This document shows, piece after piece, positions 4,320 to 24,633 of a DNA stretch of 36,269 bases. The notes below the pieces were generated by a model. The model was given only the letters and a program-made list of their open reading frames with translations. It ran no database searches and was not told where the DNA came from. Position 1 is the first letter of the stretch. Every line of letters starts with the position of its first letter. Source of the DNA: Clostridia bacterium. GTDB lineage: Bacteria > Bacillota > Clostridia > Lutisporales > Lutisporaceae. Where the stretch lies: assembly GCA_029238945.1 (NCBI GenBank), contig JAQZBM010000007.1, positions 1 to 36,269 on the forward strand, read 5' to 3'. A program made the translations under genes and the position numbers.

Positions 4320-5831
4320 TTGAAAAAACTAGTCTCATTTACTCTCGTTGCATCACTTATGCTAACATCTGCCGTATATGCTTCTGAAAGCTTCATAGCA
4401 GATGGAAAAAGTGTAGACGTTGTTGCTGCTGCTACCAACGCAACACCGGCACCGGCTCCGGCTACTAAGCCAACACCGGCTCCGGCTGCTAAGCCGACTA
4501 CAACTACACCAGCTACAGCTACAGCTACTCAAATTAGCCGTTTACTTGCATATGGTTCAAGGGGTGCTGATGTTAAGCTTTTACAGACTCTTTTGGTGAA
4601 TAACGGATATACCCTTGCGATTGATGGTATCTTCGGAAATCAAACACAAAAGGCAGTTAAGGATTACCAAAGTAAAAACGGACTTAAGGTTGATGGAATA
4701 GTTGGTCCTAAGACTCTAGGAAAGCTGAATGCAACAGCAGCTCCATCAAAGCTGACAATTTCAAACGCAAATGACAGTATCCAAAACAAAACCTTCAAGG
4801 GTGACGTATATGTAAGAGCTGCAAACTTCCAGTTAGTTAATGCTGTAGTGGATGGAAACATATACTTCGTTACTCAGGAGGCTAAAGATACCTTCAAAAT
4901 GGACGCCGGCAGCAAAGTAACAGGTGACCAAATACTTGCGGATGTTGACGCTGTATCAACTGCTTCATTAGTAAATGATGTAGCTGCCTTTGAAAAGGCA
5001 ATAAGCAAAGACGGTACTTGGATTGTTTGTCCATTAAGAGACTTAACTACAGACAAAGCTCTTGTAGTTGAAGGCACATTCTATGATAAGAATGATACTA
5101 CAAAGGCTTTAAAGCGTAAGATTGGTCTTTACACTCACAATGATCCAAATGATAAGAAAAAAGCCACACACAGCTTTACTTTGACAGCTCCATCACTGAC
5201 AATCAAGAGTCCAAGCACTACTCTGCAATATGGTACTTTTGTTGGTGATATCTATGTTAGAGCTGACAACTTCAACTTAACTAATACTAAGGTTGACGGA
5301 AACATATACTTTGTAACTCAATCAGCTAAGGATACCTTCACAAATACAAACAGTACTGTAACAGGTGAGCTTATACTTGCAGATGTTGATGCTGTATCAA
5401 CTGCTTCAATAGTCAGCGACGCTGCTGCTTTCGAGAAGGCAATAAGCAAAGACGGTACTTGGATTATTACTACTCTTAGAGACCTTGTTATCGATAAAGA
5501 GCTTGTAGTTGAAGGCACATTCCATGATAAGAATGACCCTGCAAAGGATTTAAAGCGTAAGATTGGTCTTTACACTCACAACAATCCTGAAAACAAGAAG
5601 ATAGCTACCCACAGCTTCACTTTAACAGTTCCTAAGCTGACTGTTAAGAGTCCAAACACTACTTTACAGTATGGAACTTTTATTGGTGATATTTATGTTG
5701 AAAGCAACAACTTCAATATAACTAACACTAAGGTTGATGGAAATATATACTTTGCAACTCAAGAAGCTATGGATTCCTTCACAAATGTAAATAGTGAAGT
5801 AACAGGGGTAATAGAGTTAAAAACAAATTAA
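4320..5831 (+). CDS. Secreted peptidoglycan-binding protein with long C-terminal repeats
   Basis: The gene starts with TTG at 4320, preceded by AAGGGGG, and encodes 503 residues. A signal peptide (MKKLVSFTLVASLMLTSAVYA, cleavage near 21-22) is followed by a Pro/Ala/Thr-rich linker (about 40-70), a PG_binding_1 domain (about 74-137, with GSRGADVKLLQTLL and DGIFGNQTQKAV), and repeats starting at 144, 292 and 439 of 148, 147 and 65 (partial) residues. Each unit opens with the pattern TFxGDIYVRxxNFxxxNxxVDGNIYF, which resembles stacked beta-helix rungs, then has an Ala-rich helix (ADVDAVSTAS) and a beta-rich part (DGTWI, VVEGTF, KRKIGLYTHN). The PG domain would dock it on the cell wall. The repeat family is not one I can name. 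No catalytic residues are evident. A structural wall or spore-envelope protein is the likeliest guess. Confidence 0.75.
   Translation: MKKLVSFTLVASLMLTSAVYASESFIADGKSVDVVAAATNATPAPAPATKPTPAPAAKPTTTTPATATATQISRLLAYGSRGADVKLLQTLLVNNGYTLAIDGIFGNQTQKAVKDYQSKNGLKVDGIVGPKTLGKLNATAAPSKLTISNANDSIQNKTFKGDVYVRAANFQLVNAVVDGNIYFVTQEAKDTFKMDAGSKVTGDQILADVDAVSTASLVNDVAAFEKAISKDGTWIVCPLRDLTTDKALVVEGTFYDKNDTTKALKRKIGLYTHNDPNDKKKATHSFTLTAPSLTIKSPSTTLQYGTFVGDIYVRADNFNLTNTKVDGNIYFVTQSAKDTFTNTNSTVTGELILADVDAVSTASIVSDAAAFEKAISKDGTWIITTLRDLVIDKELVVEGTFHDKNDPAKDLKRKIGLYTHNNPENKKIATHSFTLTVPKLTVKSPNTTLQYGTFIGDIYVESNNFNITNTKVDGNIYFATQEAMDSFTNVNSEVTGVIELKTN
4749..5828 (+). repeat. Intragenic repeat array (2.4 units of about 147 codons)
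   Basis: Units begin at 4749, 5193 and 5634. Long blocks are identical at the DNA level, for example AAGCGTAAGATTGGTCTTTA and the block coding for KAISKDGTWI, in both full units. The third unit stops after the VDGNIYF rung. Silent sites are also conserved in these blocks, pointing to recent duplication or ongoing gene conversion. Confidence 0.85.
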
Positions 5832-10384: not shown

Positions 10385-11380
10385 CTATGTTAGTCCCTTT
10401 TGTATCTTTCCCTTGAAAAGCAGAAATACCAAGCCTGTCAAGGCAATTATCCATACTGTGTACTGCACTATCTGTGCCCATGTTATAGTATTGGCTATAA
10501 CCCTAATCAAACCTATACTGCTCCAGTAAAGAGGCGACCAATATAGAAAGATGTGTTTATCAGCTGGCAGTACAGCTGCTCCGATATAGGATGCAGATAC
10601 AAATATCAGAAGGAACTTCATATTGGCTATGCCTGTAATCTGATTGCTGCTGAGCACGCCCATCAGGAAGCCGAATATGACAGCTATGATGGAGCTGGAT
10701 AAGGTCATAACCAAAACCATCCCCACATTGACATCCCTAAGCCCCAATATCCATATGACTGCCAAAACCTCTATCACAGGAAGAACAAAACCTACAATGC
10801 TTTTACCTGCAATAAACTCCAGCCTTCTCATCGGCGTTACGCTTAAAGCGCTTATGGTCATGTCCTCCTTCTCTTCAATGATATTGAGCCCAATGACCAT
10901 TCCCCCGAGAAGTATTGCCATGAGAATCACCGAGCTGGCCCCATATACCGCTACCGAGGATATTTTGGCACCGATATCACTGAAGGTTACAGCCCGCTCA
11001 GCACCTTGGCTCTTCATGCCGCTTAATATCTGATATGCCATCAGCTTTGCGCTTTCCTTTTCATTACCCTGCGTAATCACTACGTAGCCGCCGTCTTCCT
11101 TCTGCAGCACTCCTATTATGTCATCCACTTTATTTACCCTGTTTTCAAGGGCTGTTCTCCCGTCTAAAAGCTCTGTTCTGCCGTATTTTTCAAACTCCTG
11201 CACAGCGGCTTCCTCCATGCCTTTGTCCAGTGCAAACTGGAGGGAAATTGCATTTACGCTTGGTATGAAGAAGCGCAAGCCTATGGTTACAACTATAGGT
11301 GCAAGTATGATATACAGCAGCAAGAATTCCCTTACACTGCTTTTCACATCTCTTCTGAATATAGATAATAGTCTTCTCAT
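10385..11380 (-). CDS. ABC-2 type exporter permease (second)
   Basis: The 331-residue protein has one N-terminal membrane helix, an extracytoplasmic segment of roughly 120 residues, and a C-terminal block of about five helices, the ABC-2/NatB-like layout. ALSVTPMRRLEFIAGK is the cytoplasmic loop typically found in this permease type. It is the last gene of the tetR operon, 13 bases after the first permease, with AGGAGG 9 bases before its ATG. With its partner permease and the ATPase it should form an exporter for a drug, lipid or peptide. The substrate is not predictable. Confidence 0.85.
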   Translation of the reverse strand: MRRLLSIFRRDVKSSVREFLLLYIILAPIVVTIGLRFFIPSVNAISLQFALDKGMEEAAVQEFEKYGRTELLDGRTALENRVNKVDDIIGVLQKEDGGYVVITQGNEKESAKLMAYQILSGMKSQGAERAVTFSDIGAKISSVAVYGASSVILMAILLGGMVIGLNIIEEKEDMTISALSVTPMRRLEFIAGKSIVGFVLPVIEVLAVIWILGLRDVNVGMVLVMTLSSSIIAVIFGFLMGVLSSNQITGIANMKFLLIFVSASYIGAAVLPADKHIFLYWSPLYWSSIGLIRVIANTITWAQIVQYTVWIIALTGLVFLLFKGKIQKGLT

Positions 11381-11393
11381 CCTCCTGCACCTC

Positions 11394-14269: not shown

Positions 14270-15547
14270 TTACAGCGCTTCATTTATTGAGTTATCCTGT
14301 ACCTTTGGCGCTGCATCAGGAACCTTGGTCAGCAGTATGCCGCCGATTACGAAAAGTATAATTATACTGAACACCCCGTTATTTGTACGGCCTGTAAGCT
14401 GTGTTACAAAGCCTACAAGGAAAGGTCCCATGATGGCTGCGAATTTTCCGAATATATTATAGAAGCCAAAGAACTCATTTGAATTTTCCTTAGGCACCAG
14501 CTTGCCGAAATAGGAACGGCTGAGAGCCTGTATGCCTCCCTGTGATGTACCTACCAGCATTGCCAGTATCCAGAAATCCAATACACTATCCATGAAGTAC
14601 GCATAAATGCAGATTATTGTATATATTGTAATGCCTGCATAAAGCAAGGTTTTGGCTTTGAAGCGTTCAGACAGCTTCCCATACAGCAGAGCGAAAGGAA
14701 AAGCCACAAACTGTGTAACAAGCAGTACCAGCAGCAGATCAGTTGTACCTATCCCTAAATCTGCACCGTAGGAGGTTGCCATCTTTATTATGGTATCCAC
14801 GCCGTCAATATAGAAGAAGTATGCAAGCAGAAACATAAACAATGTCTTATGCTTCTTTATATTCCTGAAGGTGTTTGCCAATCTCTTGAAGCTGTTCACA
14901 ACAGGCTTCGGCTCAATATCTATTCCGTAGACCTGCTTGACGTTTCTTAGCATTGGGATAGAGAACACAGCCCACCAAACCGCAGTAATGACAAAGGCTA
15001 TTTTGAAGGTTGTCTCTACAGCAAGGGGTATAATTTCAAATTGTGCCAGCATTACTAAGGCCATACAGATTATAAAGGGTATTGTGCTTCCGATATAGCC
15101 CAGCCCAAAGCCCATGGTAGATACTCTGTCCATCCTTTTTTCTTCAGTTACATCCACCAAGAAGGAATCATAAAATATATTAGTGCCCGAGAAACCCAGT
15201 ACTGTTATGACATAGAACGCAAGAAGCATCCACCAGTATGTGTTCGGAACTATTGACAGCATAGCTGTAAATACTACTCCAAGGCTGAAGAAAATAATGA
15301 AAAATCTCTTTTTATAGCCTCTGTAGTCTGCTATAGTTCCCAGTATAGGAGCCATTATCGCCAAAAGCAGAGTTGCAATGGAGTTTGCATATCCCCAATA
15401 TGCAGTGGAAAGGGTTGAACTTCCCCCGCTGTTTTGAAAAACCATTTTGAAATACAGCGGCAGTATGGTTGAGGTTACCGTCATTGAGTAAGCGGAATTT
15501 GCCCAGTCATAAAGAGCCCAGCTTTTTTCCGTTTTGTTTAGCTTCAT
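14270..15547 (-). CDS. MFS permease, UMF1/Atg22-like
   Basis: A 425-residue protein with about 12 membrane segments. The opening KSWALYDWANSAYSMTVTSTILPLYF and the later VTEEKRMDRVSTMGFGLGYIG with its GLGYIGS motif are distinctive for the bacterial UMF1 branch related to yeast Atg22, which exports amino acids from vacuoles. The bacterial substrate is unknown. The ribosome site is GAGAGGAAGG. It lies downstream of the cyanophycin genes but is separated from them by a terminator and repeats, so it is probably transcribed on its own. Confidence 0.85.
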   Translation of the reverse strand: MKLNKTEKSWALYDWANSAYSMTVTSTILPLYFKMVFQNSGGSSTLSTAYWGYANSIATLLLAIMAPILGTIADYRGYKKRFFIIFFSLGVVFTAMLSIVPNTYWWMLLAFYVITVLGFSGTNIFYDSFLVDVTEEKRMDRVSTMGFGLGYIGSTIPFIICMALVMLAQFEIIPLAVETTFKIAFVITAVWWAVFSIPMLRNVKQVYGIDIEPKPVVNSFKRLANTFRNIKKHKTLFMFLLAYFFYIDGVDTIIKMATSYGADLGIGTTDLLLVLLVTQFVAFPFALLYGKLSERFKAKTLLYAGITIYTIICIYAYFMDSVLDFWILAMLVGTSQGGIQALSRSYFGKLVPKENSNEFFGFYNIFGKFAAIMGPFLVGFVTQLTGRTNNGVFSIIILFVIGGILLTKVPDAAPKVQDNSINEAL

Positions 15548-15610: not shown

Positions 15611-15638
15611 AAAAAAGCTATCTGATTTACAGATAGCT
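15611..15638 (-). terminator. Terminator downstream of the cyanophycin operon
   Basis: AGCTATCTG and CAGATAGCT (15616-15624, 15630-15638) form a 9-bp stem with a 5-base loop, followed on the minus strand by TTTTTTGG. It is 160 bases past the cphA stop codon, with REP-like elements in between. Confidence 0.85.
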
Positions 15639-15696: not shown

Positions 15697-15722
15697 GGGT
15701 CAGCATGGAAACTGACCCCTAC
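15697..15722 (-). repeat. REP-like element: GTAG plus hairpin (copy A)
   Basis: Read on the minus strand, GTAG (15719-15722) is followed directly by a hairpin with arms GGGTCAG / CTGACCC (15712-15718 and 15697-15703). The arms differ from the other two copies, but the GTAG foot and layout are the same. Confidence 0.55.
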
Positions 15723-15737
15723 ATCCTATTACACTCA

Positions 15738-15762
15738 GGACGCTGAAGGCAGCGTCCCCTAC
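15738..15762 (-). repeat. REP-like element: GTAG plus hairpin (copy B)
   Basis: On the minus strand GTAG (15759-15762) precedes GGGGACGCTG-CCTT-CAGCGTCC. The 26-base core 15738-15763 is identical to the copy at 23833-23858 except for one loop base, although the two are 8 kb apart in unrelated intergenic places. Confidence 0.75.
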
Positions 15763-15765
15763 AAT

Positions 15766-15799
15766 ACCTGTCACCTGTTACCTGTTATCTGTCACCTGC
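15766..15799. repeat. Heptanucleotide tandem repeat at the cphA stop codon
   Basis: Five units of ACCTGT(C/T) in a row (third-last unit ATCTGTC, last one truncated) run up to the first base of the cphA stop codon. They are adjacent to the REP-like hairpins. Confidence 0.7.
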
Positions 15800-18441
15800 T
15801 ATGCATTCTGCATGATTACTACATTTTGCTGGTTTGCCAGCAGCTCGGTTGTTTCGTTTATGGTGCCGGTTACTCCGTTATAGTCCTCATAAAAGACTAT
15901 AATTATATCTTCAGGCTGTGCCATCATCATAGCCTTTCTAAGAGCTTCTTCCTCTGACAGCTCAATTATCACATTGTTTTTGTCTATGCCTCCGATGATG
16001 CAGCCGTTCATAAGCTTCTTAGCAACATCTCCCGGGTCTCTTCCTCTGCGATCCTTATCCTCTTTTATGATTATGTGATGGAAATTCTCCCCGCACAGCT
16101 GTCCTACTCTCACAGTGCTGGTCTCCGTCCTGTCTCCGGGGACTCCGATTACTCCTATAAGTCTGTTGTGCTTCATATTCTTCAGGCTTGTTATTGCTTC
16201 CTTATATCCGTCTATATTGTGACCGTAGTCAACAACAACTTTGAAGCCATGAACATCATATATATTAAATCTTCCCGGATTGCATTCATCATCTGACTTG
16301 AACTTCTTCAGTGCTTTGACAATATATTCAGGCTCTACCCCCAAGCCGTAAGCTCCGGCAATTGACGAAAGACTGTTCTTGACATTATAGCTTACAGCCC
16401 CGTTTAAGGTAGCAGGGATATCCCAAGAGTGCATCAGCTTGATTTCTTCTCTGCCGTCAAATACATATATATCGCCCTCTCTCAGATATACCGCCTTGCC
16501 TCCCCCTGTAATCTGCTTCTGTATTATCTCATTTTTGAAGCTGATTGAGAAATAGATTACATTCTTGTTGAGGCGTTCCCCAATCTCAGCACAGTATTTG
16601 TCGTCTGCATTTAGCACAGCATAGCCGTCATCCTTAATTGCTTCAACCACGAGAGCCTTGACGTGAGCTAAGTCATCAAAGGTATTTATTCCATCCAATC
16701 CTAAGTGGTCCTCGGTAATATTTGTCAGGATGCCTACATCAGCCAAATCATAGCCTAAGCCCATGCTTACTATACCGCCCCTGGCTGTCTCAAGTACTGC
16801 TGCCTCTACGCGCTTATCCGTCAATATCATTCTTGCACTTCTATAGCCCGTAGTATCTCCCTTCATGATGCATTTGTCGTTTATATAAACGCCTCCTGTA
16901 GAGGTCATCCCTACAGTATAGCCTTTTTCCTGCAATATCTTGTTTATCATTCTTGTTGTTGTGGTCTTTCCGTTTGTACCTGTCACAGCGACCAAGGGTA
17001 TGCTGTTCTTGTTACCTTCAGGAAAAAGCATATCCACTATATGCTTTGCAACGTTTCTCGACTTGCCTACTGCCGGGTAGTAGTGCATCCTTATGCCCGG
17101 AGCAGCATTTACTTCAATAACCGCACCATTATCTTCCCGCATAGGATTGCTGATATCCCTTGTGGTTATATCTACTCCTGCGATATCCAGACCTACTATA
17201 GCTGCGGCATGTATTGCTATTTCTGCATTATCGGGGTGTATATCATCTGTCATGTCTATAGCTGTGCCCCCTGTGCTTAAATTATCGTTTTCTCTAAGCA
17301 GCACCTGCTCGCCTACTGCCGGTATATAGTTCACATCCATATCATTCTTTAGAAGGAGCATTTCCATTATAGGATCTATCTTTATCTTTGTAAGAGGCTT
17401 TTCATGTCCGTCGCCTCTAAGAGGGTTTAGGTTCTCTATTTCAATAAGCTCTTTTATAGTATTTTTACCGTTTCCCGTAATGAAGGGTGCAATTCTTTCG
17501 GCACAGGCAACTACCCTTCCGTTTACTACCAGTACTCTGTAATGCTTACCCTCAACAAACTTTTCTACTATAACTTCCTCGCCAAATTGCTTTGCAATGC
17601 CGAAGGCAGCTGTCACCTCATGCTGATTTTTGAGCTTAACCGATACTCCTTTGCCCTGATTTCCGCTGTTTGGCTTTACTACCACCGGATATCCCAGTCC
17701 CTCTGCGTAACTCAGCAGCTCTCCCAGATTATCCGCAATTCTTCCCTCAGGAATAGGTATTCCAGCCGTTCTGAGCAAATCCTTGGTAAGCTCCTTATCA
17801 CAGGATATATCAGCTGCTATACAGCTTGTATCTTCTGTCAGAGTGGCTTGTATTCTTTTGCTGTATTTACCGTAGCCCAGCTGAAGAAGGCTTCCTTTTC
17901 CCAGTACCAAAACCGGTATACCTCTTTCTTCAGCTTCCTTCTTTATGGCTGCAGTGCTTGGTCCAAGATCCAGCTTTGCTGCCTTAATCTTGATTTCATT
18001 TAATTTCTCATTGAAGTTAAGCCTTGAACCCTTTGAAATCTCATTGGTCAGATATATCGCTGTCTGCAAGGCTTCGTAACCGATAGTCCTGCTTCTATAC
18101 TCATATATTACAGAATACACTGTGCTTCCTTCCTCAAGCTGCCTTGCCTTTCCAAAAGCAACATCATAGCCTAAAAGATTCTGGATTTCCAGGCACATAT
18201 GTTCAAGCACATGAGCTAAATAAGTACCTTCCCTAAGCCTATCTACAAAGCCTCCTCTATAGCCTTTTGCGCATTTGTGCTCGATTAAAGACGGCATATG
18301 CTCCAGCAGCAGCTCATTAAAACCCGGTATGCTGCAGGTTGGAGTGTCGCATAGCTCCTCCAAATCAATATCTGCTCTGATACACGGCCTGTGAGTATAA
18401 ATGTTTCTGCCTTCGTATATCCTTAACTCCTGTATTTTCAA
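15799..18441 (-). CDS. cphA: Cyanophycin synthetase
   Basis: Three domains are visible: an N-terminal CphA domain (1-160), an ATP-grasp domain (about 205-475, with VVKPNSGNQGKGV and EVNAAPGIRMHYYP), and a Mur-ligase-like domain with P-loop VAVTGTNGKTTTT (484-496) and ETARGGI. The enzyme builds cyanophycin (multi-L-arginyl-poly-aspartate), a nitrogen and carbon store, adding Asp at one active site and Arg at the other. I take TTG at 18441 as start (880 residues): GGAGG lies 8 bases upstream and the product then begins MKIQELRIYEGRNIY, as family members do. The ATG at 18456 has no ribosome site and would consume the one used here. It follows the cyanophycinase gene directly. Confidence 0.93.
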   Translation of the reverse strand: MKIQELRIYEGRNIYTHRPCIRADIDLEELCDTPTCSIPGFNELLLEHMPSLIEHKCAKGYRGGFVDRLREGTYLAHVLEHMCLEIQNLLGYDVAFGKARQLEEGSTVYSVIYEYRSRTIGYEALQTAIYLTNEISKGSRLNFNEKLNEIKIKAAKLDLGPSTAAIKKEAEERGIPVLVLGKGSLLQLGYGKYSKRIQATLTEDTSCIAADISCDKELTKDLLRTAGIPIPEGRIADNLGELLSYAEGLGYPVVVKPNSGNQGKGVSVKLKNQHEVTAAFGIAKQFGEEVIVEKFVEGKHYRVLVVNGRVVACAERIAPFITGNGKNTIKELIEIENLNPLRGDGHEKPLTKIKIDPIMEMLLLKNDMDVNYIPAVGEQVLLRENDNLSTGGTAIDMTDDIHPDNAEIAIHAAAIVGLDIAGVDITTRDISNPMREDNGAVIEVNAAPGIRMHYYPAVGKSRNVAKHIVDMLFPEGNKNSIPLVAVTGTNGKTTTTRMINKILQEKGYTVGMTSTGGVYINDKCIMKGDTTGYRSARMILTDKRVEAAVLETARGGIVSMGLGYDLADVGILTNITEDHLGLDGINTFDDLAHVKALVVEAIKDDGYAVLNADDKYCAEIGERLNKNVIYFSISFKNEIIQKQITGGGKAVYLREGDIYVFDGREEIKLMHSWDIPATLNGAVSYNVKNSLSSIAGAYGLGVEPEYIVKALKKFKSDDECNPGRFNIYDVHGFKVVVDYGHNIDGYKEAITSLKNMKHNRLIGVIGVPGDRTETSTVRVGQLCGENFHHIIIKEDKDRRGRDPGDVAKKLMNGCIIGGIDKNNVIIELSEEEALRKAMMMAQPEDIIIVFYEDYNGVTGTINETTELLANQQNVVIMQNA

Positions 18442-18468
18442 TTCAATTGCCTCCATAACATTGGTTAT

Positions 18469-19287
18469 TTAGTGCTTTTCACTAATTATAATGGCAGTTT
18501 TATCTATAAGATTATACCCATAACGTTCTGGCAATATGTGTACAGTAACGTTAGTTAATGCCAATGGATCGTCAGGATACTGCTCTGTTATGTTCGTATA
18601 TTCTATATGTCTTCCATCCACTACTGTTACAACACCGTTTCCTATTACAGAAAATTTTTCATTTCCCTCTACAACAATTGCAGTGTCTTCATCAATGCCG
18701 ATTCCCAGTATACTTGGATTTTGAGCTACAGCAGCAAAAAGCCTGCCTATTCTGCCTCTTTGATTGAAATGTTGGTCTATAACTACACCATCTATCAAGC
18801 CCATTCCCGGCGCAAGCTTTATTGTACATCTGGCCGGAGCCTCCTCATCGTCTCCTTCTACAATCATAATTTGGCTCATCATGGATGCTCCTGCACTGGT
18901 GCCTGCAATTATCCTTCCTTCACGACGGTAATCATGTATCAGATTATGAAAGTCTGTACCGCCTATTATGCTGGATATTCTAAGCTGGTCTCCGCCGCTG
19001 AAAAAGAGACAGCTGTAGTCCATTATCTTGTCAATGGTACCGTGGATATCTGAAGTTTTTCTGCCCCCTATATTTATAGTATTAACTTCACTGACTCCCA
19101 TATCTTTAAACAATTTTTCATATTCTTGTCCTACTTCCTCCGGAAGCTTTGTAGCAGTTGTAACTATACCAATTCTCGCTTCCTTACCTCCCGCAAGCTT
19201 AACTACTTCCTTCAAAATCTTCTTATCAGCCTTTTTATCTTCGCCTCCGCCAATAATAACTAGCTTAAAATCTTTTGCATCCGTCAT
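18469..19287 (-). CDS. cphB: Cyanophycinase (peptidase S51)
   Basis: A 272-residue serine hydrolase of the S51 family. The nucleophile elbow GTSAGAS has Ser131. LFFSGGDQLR (94-103) and GIGIDEDTAIVVEG are further family marks. CphB cuts cyanophycin to beta-Asp-Arg dipeptides. It precedes cphA by 27 bases to the TTG start, so storage and breakdown enzymes share a transcript. An isoaspartyl dipeptidase to finish the job is not in the window. AGGTGGAG precedes the ATG. Confidence 0.93.
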   Translation of the reverse strand: MTDAKDFKLVIIGGGEDKKADKKILKEVVKLAGGKEARIGIVTTATKLPEEVGQEYEKLFKDMGVSEVNTINIGGRKTSDIHGTIDKIMDYSCLFFSGGDQLRISSIIGGTDFHNLIHDYRREGRIIAGTSAGASMMSQIMIVEGDDEEAPARCTIKLAPGMGLIDGVVIDQHFNQRGRIGRLFAAVAQNPSILGIGIDEDTAIVVEGNEKFSVIGNGVVTVVDGRHIEYTNITEQYPDDPLALTNVTVHILPERYGYNLIDKTAIIISEKH

Positions 19288-22850: not shown

Positions 22851-23798
22851 ATGTATAGCGATGTTCTTCTGACTATTGTACTTTTAGCTGCAGCCATAGC
22901 GGCTATACTCTTACTGGCAGGCAGCTACTTCTATAACTATGCCATACTTCGCAGAAAAAAAGAATTTCTACAGCATGACGAAGACCTGAAGGGCATGAAT
23001 TCCGGAGGCGAATGGGTACATAGCAAGGAGTGGCTGAAGCAGCAAGACTACAAGGAGCTGACTATAAATTCAAGTGATGGCTTAAAGCTGAATGCAATAT
23101 ACCTGCCTGCTGCTGACAATTCCGACAAGGTCGCCATACTGGTGCACGGCTATAGCAGCTGGAGCGGCTCAATGGCTAGTTTTGCCCAATATTACAGTCA
23201 GGAGCTGGGATATAGCATACTGATGCCCGACCTGCGTGGTCACGGCAAAAGCGAAGGAAAATACATCGGTTTTGGATGGCATGACAGAAAGGATATGCTG
23301 CAGTGGATTGATGTCATGATAGAAAAGCACGGCAGCAGCTGTCAAATAGTGCTGCATGGTGTATCTATGGGCGGTACTACTGTACTAATGACCAGTGGTG
23401 AAGAACTGCCGGACAATGTGCGATGCATTGTATCAGATTGTGCCTACAGCTCTGTTGAAGGCATACTTGGCTATCACATGAAAAGAATGTTTAAGCTGCC
23501 TAAGTTTCCTTTACTGAATGTAACCAGCCTTATATCCCGCATAAGAGCAGGCTACAGCATTAAGGAGGCCTCTGCCTTGGTTCAGGTGGAGCATGCCTGC
23601 AAACCGATTTTGTTTATACATGGAAGCGAGGATAAATTTGTCCCTACAAAAATGGTTTACCAGCTATATGATGCTGCAGCTTCAGCCAAGGAGCTGCTGA
23701 TTATAGATGGAGCTGAGCATGCCATGTCCTACTGGGTGGCACCTGCAGCCTACAAGGCGAAAGTAGAAGAGTTTTTGGATAAACACACGAAGCGCTAG
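22851..23798 (+). CDS. Membrane-anchored alpha/beta hydrolase
   Basis: The 315-residue protein has an N-terminal membrane helix (about 7-30) and a serine hydrolase domain: oxyanion region VHGYSSW, DLRGHGKSEG, nucleophile elbow HGVSMGG (Ser172), acid HGSEDKFVP (Asp261) and His290 (AEHAMSYW). The family includes esterases and acyl-peptide hydrolases of the DUF/BAAT-like S9 type (as in Bacillus YqkD). The ATG at 22851 is preferred because AGAGGGG is 6 bases upstream; an ATG at 22845 overlaps it. The stop codon lies inside a hairpin (23791-23817). Confidence 0.88.
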   Translation: MYSDVLLTIVLLAAAIAAILLLAGSYFYNYAILRRKKEFLQHDEDLKGMNSGGEWVHSKEWLKQQDYKELTINSSDGLKLNAIYLPAADNSDKVAILVHGYSSWSGSMASFAQYYSQELGYSILMPDLRGHGKSEGKYIGFGWHDRKDMLQWIDVMIEKHGSSCQIVLHGVSMGGTTVLMTSGEELPDNVRCIVSDCAYSSVEGILGYHMKRMFKLPKFPLLNVTSLISRIRAGYSIKEASALVQVEHACKPILFIHGSEDKFVPTKMVYQLYDAAASAKELLIIDGAEHAMSYWVAPAAYKAKVEEFLDKHTKR

Positions 23799-23817
23799 GG
23801 ACGGTTCCCAGCGCTTC
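23791..23817 (+). terminator. Hairpin over the hydrolase stop codon
   Basis: AAGCGCT / AGCGCTT arms with inner GGGA / TCCC make a strong stem with one bulged base. No T-run follows, so it may be an mRNA 3' stabiliser or a relic of a repeat rather than a true terminator. Confidence 0.55.
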
Positions 23818-23831
23818 ACAAATCTCAGCTA

Positions 23832-23857
23832 GGGACGCTGAGGGCAGCGTCCCCTAC
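23832..23857 (-). repeat. REP-like element: GTAG plus hairpin (copy C)
   Basis: On the minus strand GTAG (23854-23857) precedes a 9-bp stem GGGACGCTG / CAGCGTCCC with a 4-base loop. The core is nearly identical to copy B at 15738. The TAG of GTAG is the stop codon of the FG-GAP-like gene. Confidence 0.78.
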
Positions 23858-24633
23858 ATTAGCTCACTTCCAAATATGCAAAGCTCCTGCCTTTCGGGGG
23901 CGAATTTCTCTCCGTCCCATACCAGCAGGGTCTGCACCCATGCCAGGGTATCTGCATTGTACTTCCCTATAACTCGCTGTATCATATTCAGGTCATATAC
24001 TCTGTCTCTCTCATAATCCACCGGATAAACATTGCCAAGGGGGATGACCTCTCCCAAGAAAGGCGTATCAATGTTCTCCTTCAAGGTGCCGTTGGGATTG
24101 TAAAGCTCCGATAGATATTCAGCACCCTTGTCGCTTATATCAATGATATATCTTGTGTTCATGGTTTTACTTATGACCTCTACCTTATAGTTATCCATGA
24201 AGCTCACTTCATACTCAAGCTCCTGACTGTAAGCCTCAGAATCGAAAAGCAGCTTTGCTTTATTGTCCAGGAAGGAGTATACATACTCATAGGAGAAGCC
24301 CCCGCTGCCGCCGGAGTCTATGCTTACCAAGATATCATCAACCCCATCCTTTGTAAAATCCCCTAAAAACACTGTGGGATTATAGCCTTGGCTTTCCTTC
24401 AGCGGTATTCTTGTGTATTTGTGAGTCGCCCCATCCTGTATGAGCACTGCAATGTCTTCTACAAAAGGGCTCTGCAAATCCCCGGGTCTGTGTCCCACAG
24501 TACATACGCTGTCTCTTATCCTGTCTCCGTTTACATCTCCATCATCGCAGTCCAGTATATAATCGCTATGACCGTTATAATACATCATCTGACGAATGGC
24601 AGGCCTAAGCTGCCTATAGAAATTATTAAACAT
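23854..24633 (-). CDS. FG-GAP/VCBS-like protein with calcium-binding loops
   Basis: The 259-residue protein has two Asp-rich loops of the FG-GAP/EF-hand type: DVNGDRIRD (33-41) and GDFTKDGVDD (91-100), each followed by beta strands, and a later VDYERDRVYDL. No signal peptide is obvious (MFNNFYRQLRPAIRQ), so export, if any, would be by another route; spore-associated localisation is one possibility. I recall similar proteins being widespread in spore-forming Bacillota without assigned function. It is downstream of the ECF sigma/anti-sigma pair, and its ribosome site GAGGGTG is buried in a hairpin. Its stop codon comes from a REP-like element. Confidence 0.6.
   Translation of the reverse strand: MFNNFYRQLRPAIRQMMYYNGHSDYILDCDDGDVNGDRIRDSVCTVGHRPGDLQSPFVEDIAVLIQDGATHKYTRIPLKESQGYNPTVFLGDFTKDGVDDILVSIDSGGSGGFSYEYVYSFLDNKAKLLFDSEAYSQELEYEVSFMDNYKVEVISKTMNTRYIIDISDKGAEYLSELYNPNGTLKENIDTPFLGEVIPLGNVYPVDYERDRVYDLNMIQRVIGKYNADTLAWVQTLLVWDGEKFAPERQELCIFGSELM

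Follow-up and report, generated by a model that had tools for sequence, protein, structure and literature searches.

The two hairpins behind the cyanophycin synthetase gene cphA of a Clostridia bacterium (family Lutisporaceae; GCA_029238945.1, contig JAQZBM010000007.1) are very probably REPs of the GTAG type, namely, short non-autonomous repeats of 26 nt, the folded single-stranded form of which is recognised by a RAYT (TnpA-REP, a HuH/Y1 nuclease) encoded elsewhere in the genome. The stretch analysed, hereafter the window, covers 36,269 nucleotides. A sequence-only reading of it had proposed REPs of this type, and the present study supports that proposal: many copies were found, they were enriched between genes, and a PF01797 gene was flanked by the same hairpins. 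None of the three results named beforehand as contrary to it (few or no further copies, no intergenic enrichment, no Y1-transposase gene in the genome) was obtained. Both hairpins were confirmed from the sequence, on the minus strand and at the coordinates given by that reading. The features of the window considered here are as follows.

14270..15547, minus strand: MFS-type transporter gene, downstream of cphA
15616..15638, minus strand: likely intrinsic terminator of cphA, hairpin AGCTATCTGTAAATCAGATAGCT and then TTTTTT (read from the sequence; missed by the consensus terminator scan)
15697..15722, minus strand: REP copy with type B loop (GTAGGGGTCAG-TTTCCATG-CTGACCC), full read GTAGGGGTCAGTTTCCATGCTGACCC (15722-15697)
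15737..15762, minus strand: REP copy of type A (GTAG-G-GGACGCTG-CCTT-CAGCGTCC-T), full read GTAGGGGACGCTGCCTTCAGCGTCCT (15762-15737)
15766..15798, minus strand: tandem array of 7-bp units (AGGTRAC), immediately 5' to GTAG in the type A copy
15799..18456, minus strand: cphA, cyanophycin synthetase (TIGR02068, 1218.7 bits), with the REPs just behind the gene
23832..23857, minus strand: third REP of the window, type A (GTAGGGGACGCTGCCCTCAGCGTCCC), the TAG of which is the stop codon of the ORF at 23854-24633

In both copies behind cphA, a palindrome of the 20-40 nt class has GTAG immediately at its foot. The copy at 15697..15722 comprises GTAG, a 7-bp stem, and an 8-nt loop (DNA fold -6.6 kcal/mol, z -3.7), and the copy at 15737..15762 has an 8-bp stem, the outermost pair of which is G.T, and a 4-nt loop (-9.9 kcal/mol, z -4.4). 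The arms of the two hairpins differ, as previously stated, with a type B loop in the former and type A in the latter. The shape of these hairpins is not rare: GTAG with a stem of at least 7 bp is expected 1.75 times per shuffled window. Hairpin shape alone was, therefore, rejected as evidence for REPs, and membership of a family repeated genome-wide is decisive.

The host assembly comprises 2.88 Mb in 326 contigs and is 77% complete, and REP counts are based on searches and fetched genome stretches. A BLASTN search with 86 bases returned 27 further matches in the same genome. They share the design of GTAG followed by a palindrome (22 nt, giving 26 nt in total in nearly all) and fall into several types: type A is GGGACGCTG-CCCA-CAGCGTCCC, type B is GGGTCAG-TTTCCATG-CTGACCC with arm variants, and type C is GGAACGAC-CCCTGT-GTCGTTCC. 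The genome-wide search proposed in the sequence-only reading yielded at least 117 copies with a covariance model, for which the best 150 candidates were scored. With the same model, four congeners had 11-54 copies, and the remaining family members that were searched had 0-6. The arms vary between types yet stay complementary, with 98.9% of cells paired. Double changes were present in 24 cells, versus 6.2 in shuffles, and affected five of the seven pairs; a covariation score as high was reached in 0 of 500 shuffles, and the pattern was destroyed when the partner was slid by one column.

The location of 73 REPs was assessed in the fetched stretches, in which 11% of the DNA is non-coding and ORFs were called mechanically, longest first. 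Enrichment in intergenic DNA had been predicted, and 57 of the 73 were intergenic (p = 3e-40 against the non-coding share). Nine others overlapped a gene end by 6 bases or fewer, and the seven called inside genes lay, by eye, mostly in over-extended or doubtful ORFs. The TAG of GTAG serves as a stop codon in eight REPs. Both neighbours were called for 57 REPs, 19 of which lie in convergent spacers and two in divergent spacers. A target-site signature was not detected beside the 73 REPs except for T at -1 and G at +1; CT directly precedes GTAG in 17 of them, which is weak, and a conserved insertion target was rejected. The 7-bp units occur near 11 of 72 REPs, including the copy at 15737..15762, nearly always upstream and in the same orientation. 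Arrays of AGGTRAC or AGGTGTC were also noted at L142 14197-14224 and L146 4679-4734, and others stand alone.

The REP pair lies between the cphA stop codon (15799-15801) and the terminator-like hairpin and, thus, probably forms part of the 3' end of the cphA mRNA. This position, together with the placement of REPs behind genes across the genome, is what may be said for regarding the hairpins as terminators or mRNA-stabilising 3' structures of cphA that are kept for their function, with their repetition being incidental. However, a consensus promoter and terminator scan detected neither a T-tract nor a terminator-like match at the hairpins, an Rfam search matched no family, and near-identical copies are scattered within RAYT genes and behind numerous others. 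The hairpins are also absent behind cphA in congeners. The distance from the cphA stop codon to the terminator is 160 nt here versus 39 nt in G004 and 42 nt in G001, and neither congener has a GTAG hairpin in that interval; G004 is syntenic on both sides in the cphA-transporter region. Since these spacers are short and lack REPs, the unit behind cphA was probably gained in this lineage; the exact ends of the insertion could not be placed owing to high sequence divergence. We consider a retained function for cphA to be very improbable. If the hairpins are mobilised REPs, any effect on the cphA mRNA would be a by-product. The genes for cyanophycin synthetase and cyanophycinase are adjacent in the window (15799-19287). 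A large tandem repeat (period 441, approximately 2.2 copies) occupies 4854-5806, inside the ORF at 4320-5831.

The sequence-only reading had also suggested a BIME-like two-element unit, and this part did not hold. The occurrence of two different REP subtypes 14 nt apart, and of 10 close pairs among the 73 REPs, might indicate one BIME- or REPIN-like composite that moves as a pair. However, the window copies share one orientation rather than being inverted, as do seven of the 10 close pairs. The close pairs vary in spacing and in the subtypes that they combine, most copies occur singly, and the same A-B pair with the same spacing was not found elsewhere in the fetched stretches. Alternating (inverted) REPs forming one repeated unit are the hallmark of BIMEs and REPINs; an inverted unit of this kind was rejected, and we regard a composite unit as the least probable of the explanations considered.

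The window contains no Y1 transposase, as had been stated, and the PF01797 search identified four Y1 genes in the genome, all of which are on other contigs. The following loci are relevant.

C61:707-1219: RAYT-1, with type A REPs upstream and downstream and two in-frame REPs with the type B loop inside
C61 842-867: internal REP 1 of RAYT-1, which codes for VGGGFHAAP
C61 1000-1025: internal REP 2 of RAYT-1, on the other strand, which codes for GGHGNPPL
Contig ends of C294 and C110: RAYT-2, split between the two, with type C REPs on both sides
C110:75-96, C280:14277-14298, and C294:57-78 of the host genome (G000): copies of an insertion-sequence end

RAYT-1 is the hairpin-flanked Y1_Tnp gene that the sequence-only reading had proposed to look for. 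The copy at 15697..15722 has the loop of both REPs inside this gene, and the copy at 15737..15762 is of the type that flanks it; therefore, the window pair represents exactly the two types of RAYT-1. Its motifs are NHIH (HuH), WQ (W), and YIVNNP (Y), the last of which fits the YIxNNP of subclass 2.4, and on these motifs RAYT-1 is classified as a TnpA-REP of subclass 2.4 (Bertels group 4). It scored 75.4 bits against NF047646 (E 4e-21), just below the curated cut-off of 80, and 37.3 bits against PF01797, above the cut-off of 23. The only PDB sequence matched by its profile was 4er8, E. coli TnpA-REP (E 6e-11), which also ranked first in a fold search with the model (mean pLDDT 76.8). The peptides encoded by the internal REPs are placed in loops of this model, between residues 31-55 and at approximately 98-106.

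RAYT-2 holds an internal type C REP that is now broken by an insertion sequence. All three copies of the insertion-sequence end (GTCAAGTACACATGGTATACAA) lie in the loop of a type C REP, one of them being inside RAYT-2; insertion sequences that target REPs are already known (PMC1525189). The other Y1 genes (C197, C142, and C116) were rejected as the mobiliser: no GTAGGG hairpins adjoin them, and their motifs, read directly, are NHVH or NHYH with FQ, resembling subclass 2.1. A second, unrelated palindrome of 29 nt (GAAGCGCTAGGGACGGTTCCTAGCGCTTC) has approximately 16 genome copies, one of which is in the window (23789-23817). It flanks the C197 gene with subclass 2.1-like motifs (C197:10486-10514 and 11362-11390), and subclass 2.1 is reported to lack REPs.

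TnpA-REP enzymes act on single-stranded REPs, require GTAG, and cut CT (or CA) near the hairpin with their tyrosine (Corneloup et al. 2021, PMC8266576). By analogy with the biochemistry of other RAYTs, from which we infer the recognition and cutting of the REPs described here, RAYT-1 would bind GTAG and the hairpin on single-stranded DNA, its tyrosine would cut a nearby dinucleotide, and the strand would be joined elsewhere. A REP strand may occasionally insert where single-stranded DNA is exposed, and such insertions would be tolerated behind genes. If a RAYT cuts and rejoins the REP strand in this manner, copies would accumulate where they are least harmful, which is mostly behind genes.

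Across 41 genomes, the presence of a RAYT coincided with that of at least five REPs (7/3/2/29; Fisher p = 1.6e-4), and the same was found outside the genus (4/3/0/29; p = 6e-4); both values are uncorrected for phylogeny. A RAYT was not found in the REP-bearing G001 and G003, the assemblies of which are incomplete (76% and 69%). G006 and G031, which carry a RAYT or a RAYT fragment, gave no matches to this REP model, and the RAYT of G031 adjoins a different hairpin of 24 nt. In G037, a 26-mer is present twice inside its own RAYT and has 47 exact and eight near copies in the genome; elsewhere, G038 had two copies and the remaining 39 genomes had none. The picture of one genome with one family was rejected as a general rule. 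Two further internal-REP families, from a search of 19 other RAYT genomes, were abundant in their own genome and also present in several others.

Scanning of genome contigs with the RAYT alignment gave 80 loci, many of which are from Clostridia and others from Chloroflexi, Calditrichaeota, cyanobacteria, and further groups. A homologue of RAYT-1 is present in Geosporobacter subterraneus (L173). GTAG hairpins lie inside the gene in 65 of these 80, and, as in RAYT-1 (C61 842-867 and 1000-1025), they do so without disrupting the frame, a feature of subclass 2.4. Among 82 genes with a HuH motif, two preferred sites were apparent. REPs at site 1 are in the plus orientation in 42 of 42 cases, mostly 42-43 codons before HuH, and GTA is a codon in 41 of these 42 although REP length ranges from 23 to 27. 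Those at site 2 are in the minus orientation in 63 cases, at a median of 13 and mostly 9-16 codons after HuH; most of the 19 plus calls at this site come from near-perfect palindromes, which score on either strand. The RAYT gene L073 1471-2172, from the relative G029, contains many tandem in-frame repeats coding for VGAIHESSE..., which are, to judge from their sequence, an amplified internal REP.

Both sites are occupied in 37 genes, for which agreement between the two REPs averages 0.90 within a gene versus 0.62 between genes. None of 10,000 permutations was as high, and 13 pairs are identical. Orthologous sites, compared with the nearest gene that is under 75% identical, matched at 0.76, which is also lower than the within-gene value (Wilcoxon p = 4e-4). 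Since the two copies are read on opposite strands, selection at the protein level is not an easy explanation for their match; concerted evolution of the DNA or selection for cognate binding may account for it. We propose, as a hypothesis with about even chances, that two in-frame REPs occupy preferred sites in the RAYT genes of group 4, in fixed opposite orientations, and that their match to each other and to the REPs of the genome is maintained either by copying at the DNA level (through gene conversion or replacement mediated by the RAYT) or by selection for cognate binding. The gene would thereby record its own specificity for DNA, through which it may also be regulated. The paired pattern is not discussed in the searchable part of Quentin 2018 (PMC6006769); this matched two-site arrangement may be new, although priority is uncertain.

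The present results describe a full REP/RAYT system in a member of the Clostridia, a placement to which its closest RAYT relatives also point: two RAYT genes are accompanied by several REP types and at least 117 REP copies. Clostridia are less described for REPs than proteobacteria, and a text search of Di Nocera 2013 (PMC3733652) did not find them mentioned. The apparent substrate of a RAYT is present in two copies inside each RAYT gene, such that specificity may be read from the gene and checked against the genome. The paired internal REPs are, thus, a natural experiment on the matching of a single-strand nuclease to its recognition hairpin.

The REPs described here resemble the GTAG REPs of Di Nocera 2013 in several respects: a palindrome of 20-40 nt has GTAG at its foot, copies are numerous and lie behind genes, a genome holds several families, RAYTs are linked to them, and GTAG often provides a TAG stop codon. 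In contrast to those REPs, nearly all copies here are 26 nt in total, with varying arms and loops. E. coli REP/BIME with its TnpA-REP (subclass 2.2; PDB 4er8) shares the HuH/Y1 enzyme fold and GTAG with a hairpin, whereas the palindromes here are perfect, lacking the stem bulge of E. coli, and do not alternate as BIMEs. The REPtrons of subclass 2.4 (RAYT group 4) in Quentin 2018 share NH[IFV]H, WQ, and YIxNNP, as well as canonical long REPs, the base of which comprises three G-C pairs. That paper already reports in-frame REPs within tnpA of subclass 2.4, as well as flanking REPs, and places internal REPs generally between HuH and Y. However, we observed two preferred sites, one of which is upstream of HuH, with opposite orientations and within-gene copies that appear to evolve in concert. 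The system described here is a member of the known GTAG-REP and group 4 RAYT kind, and this assignment is well supported.
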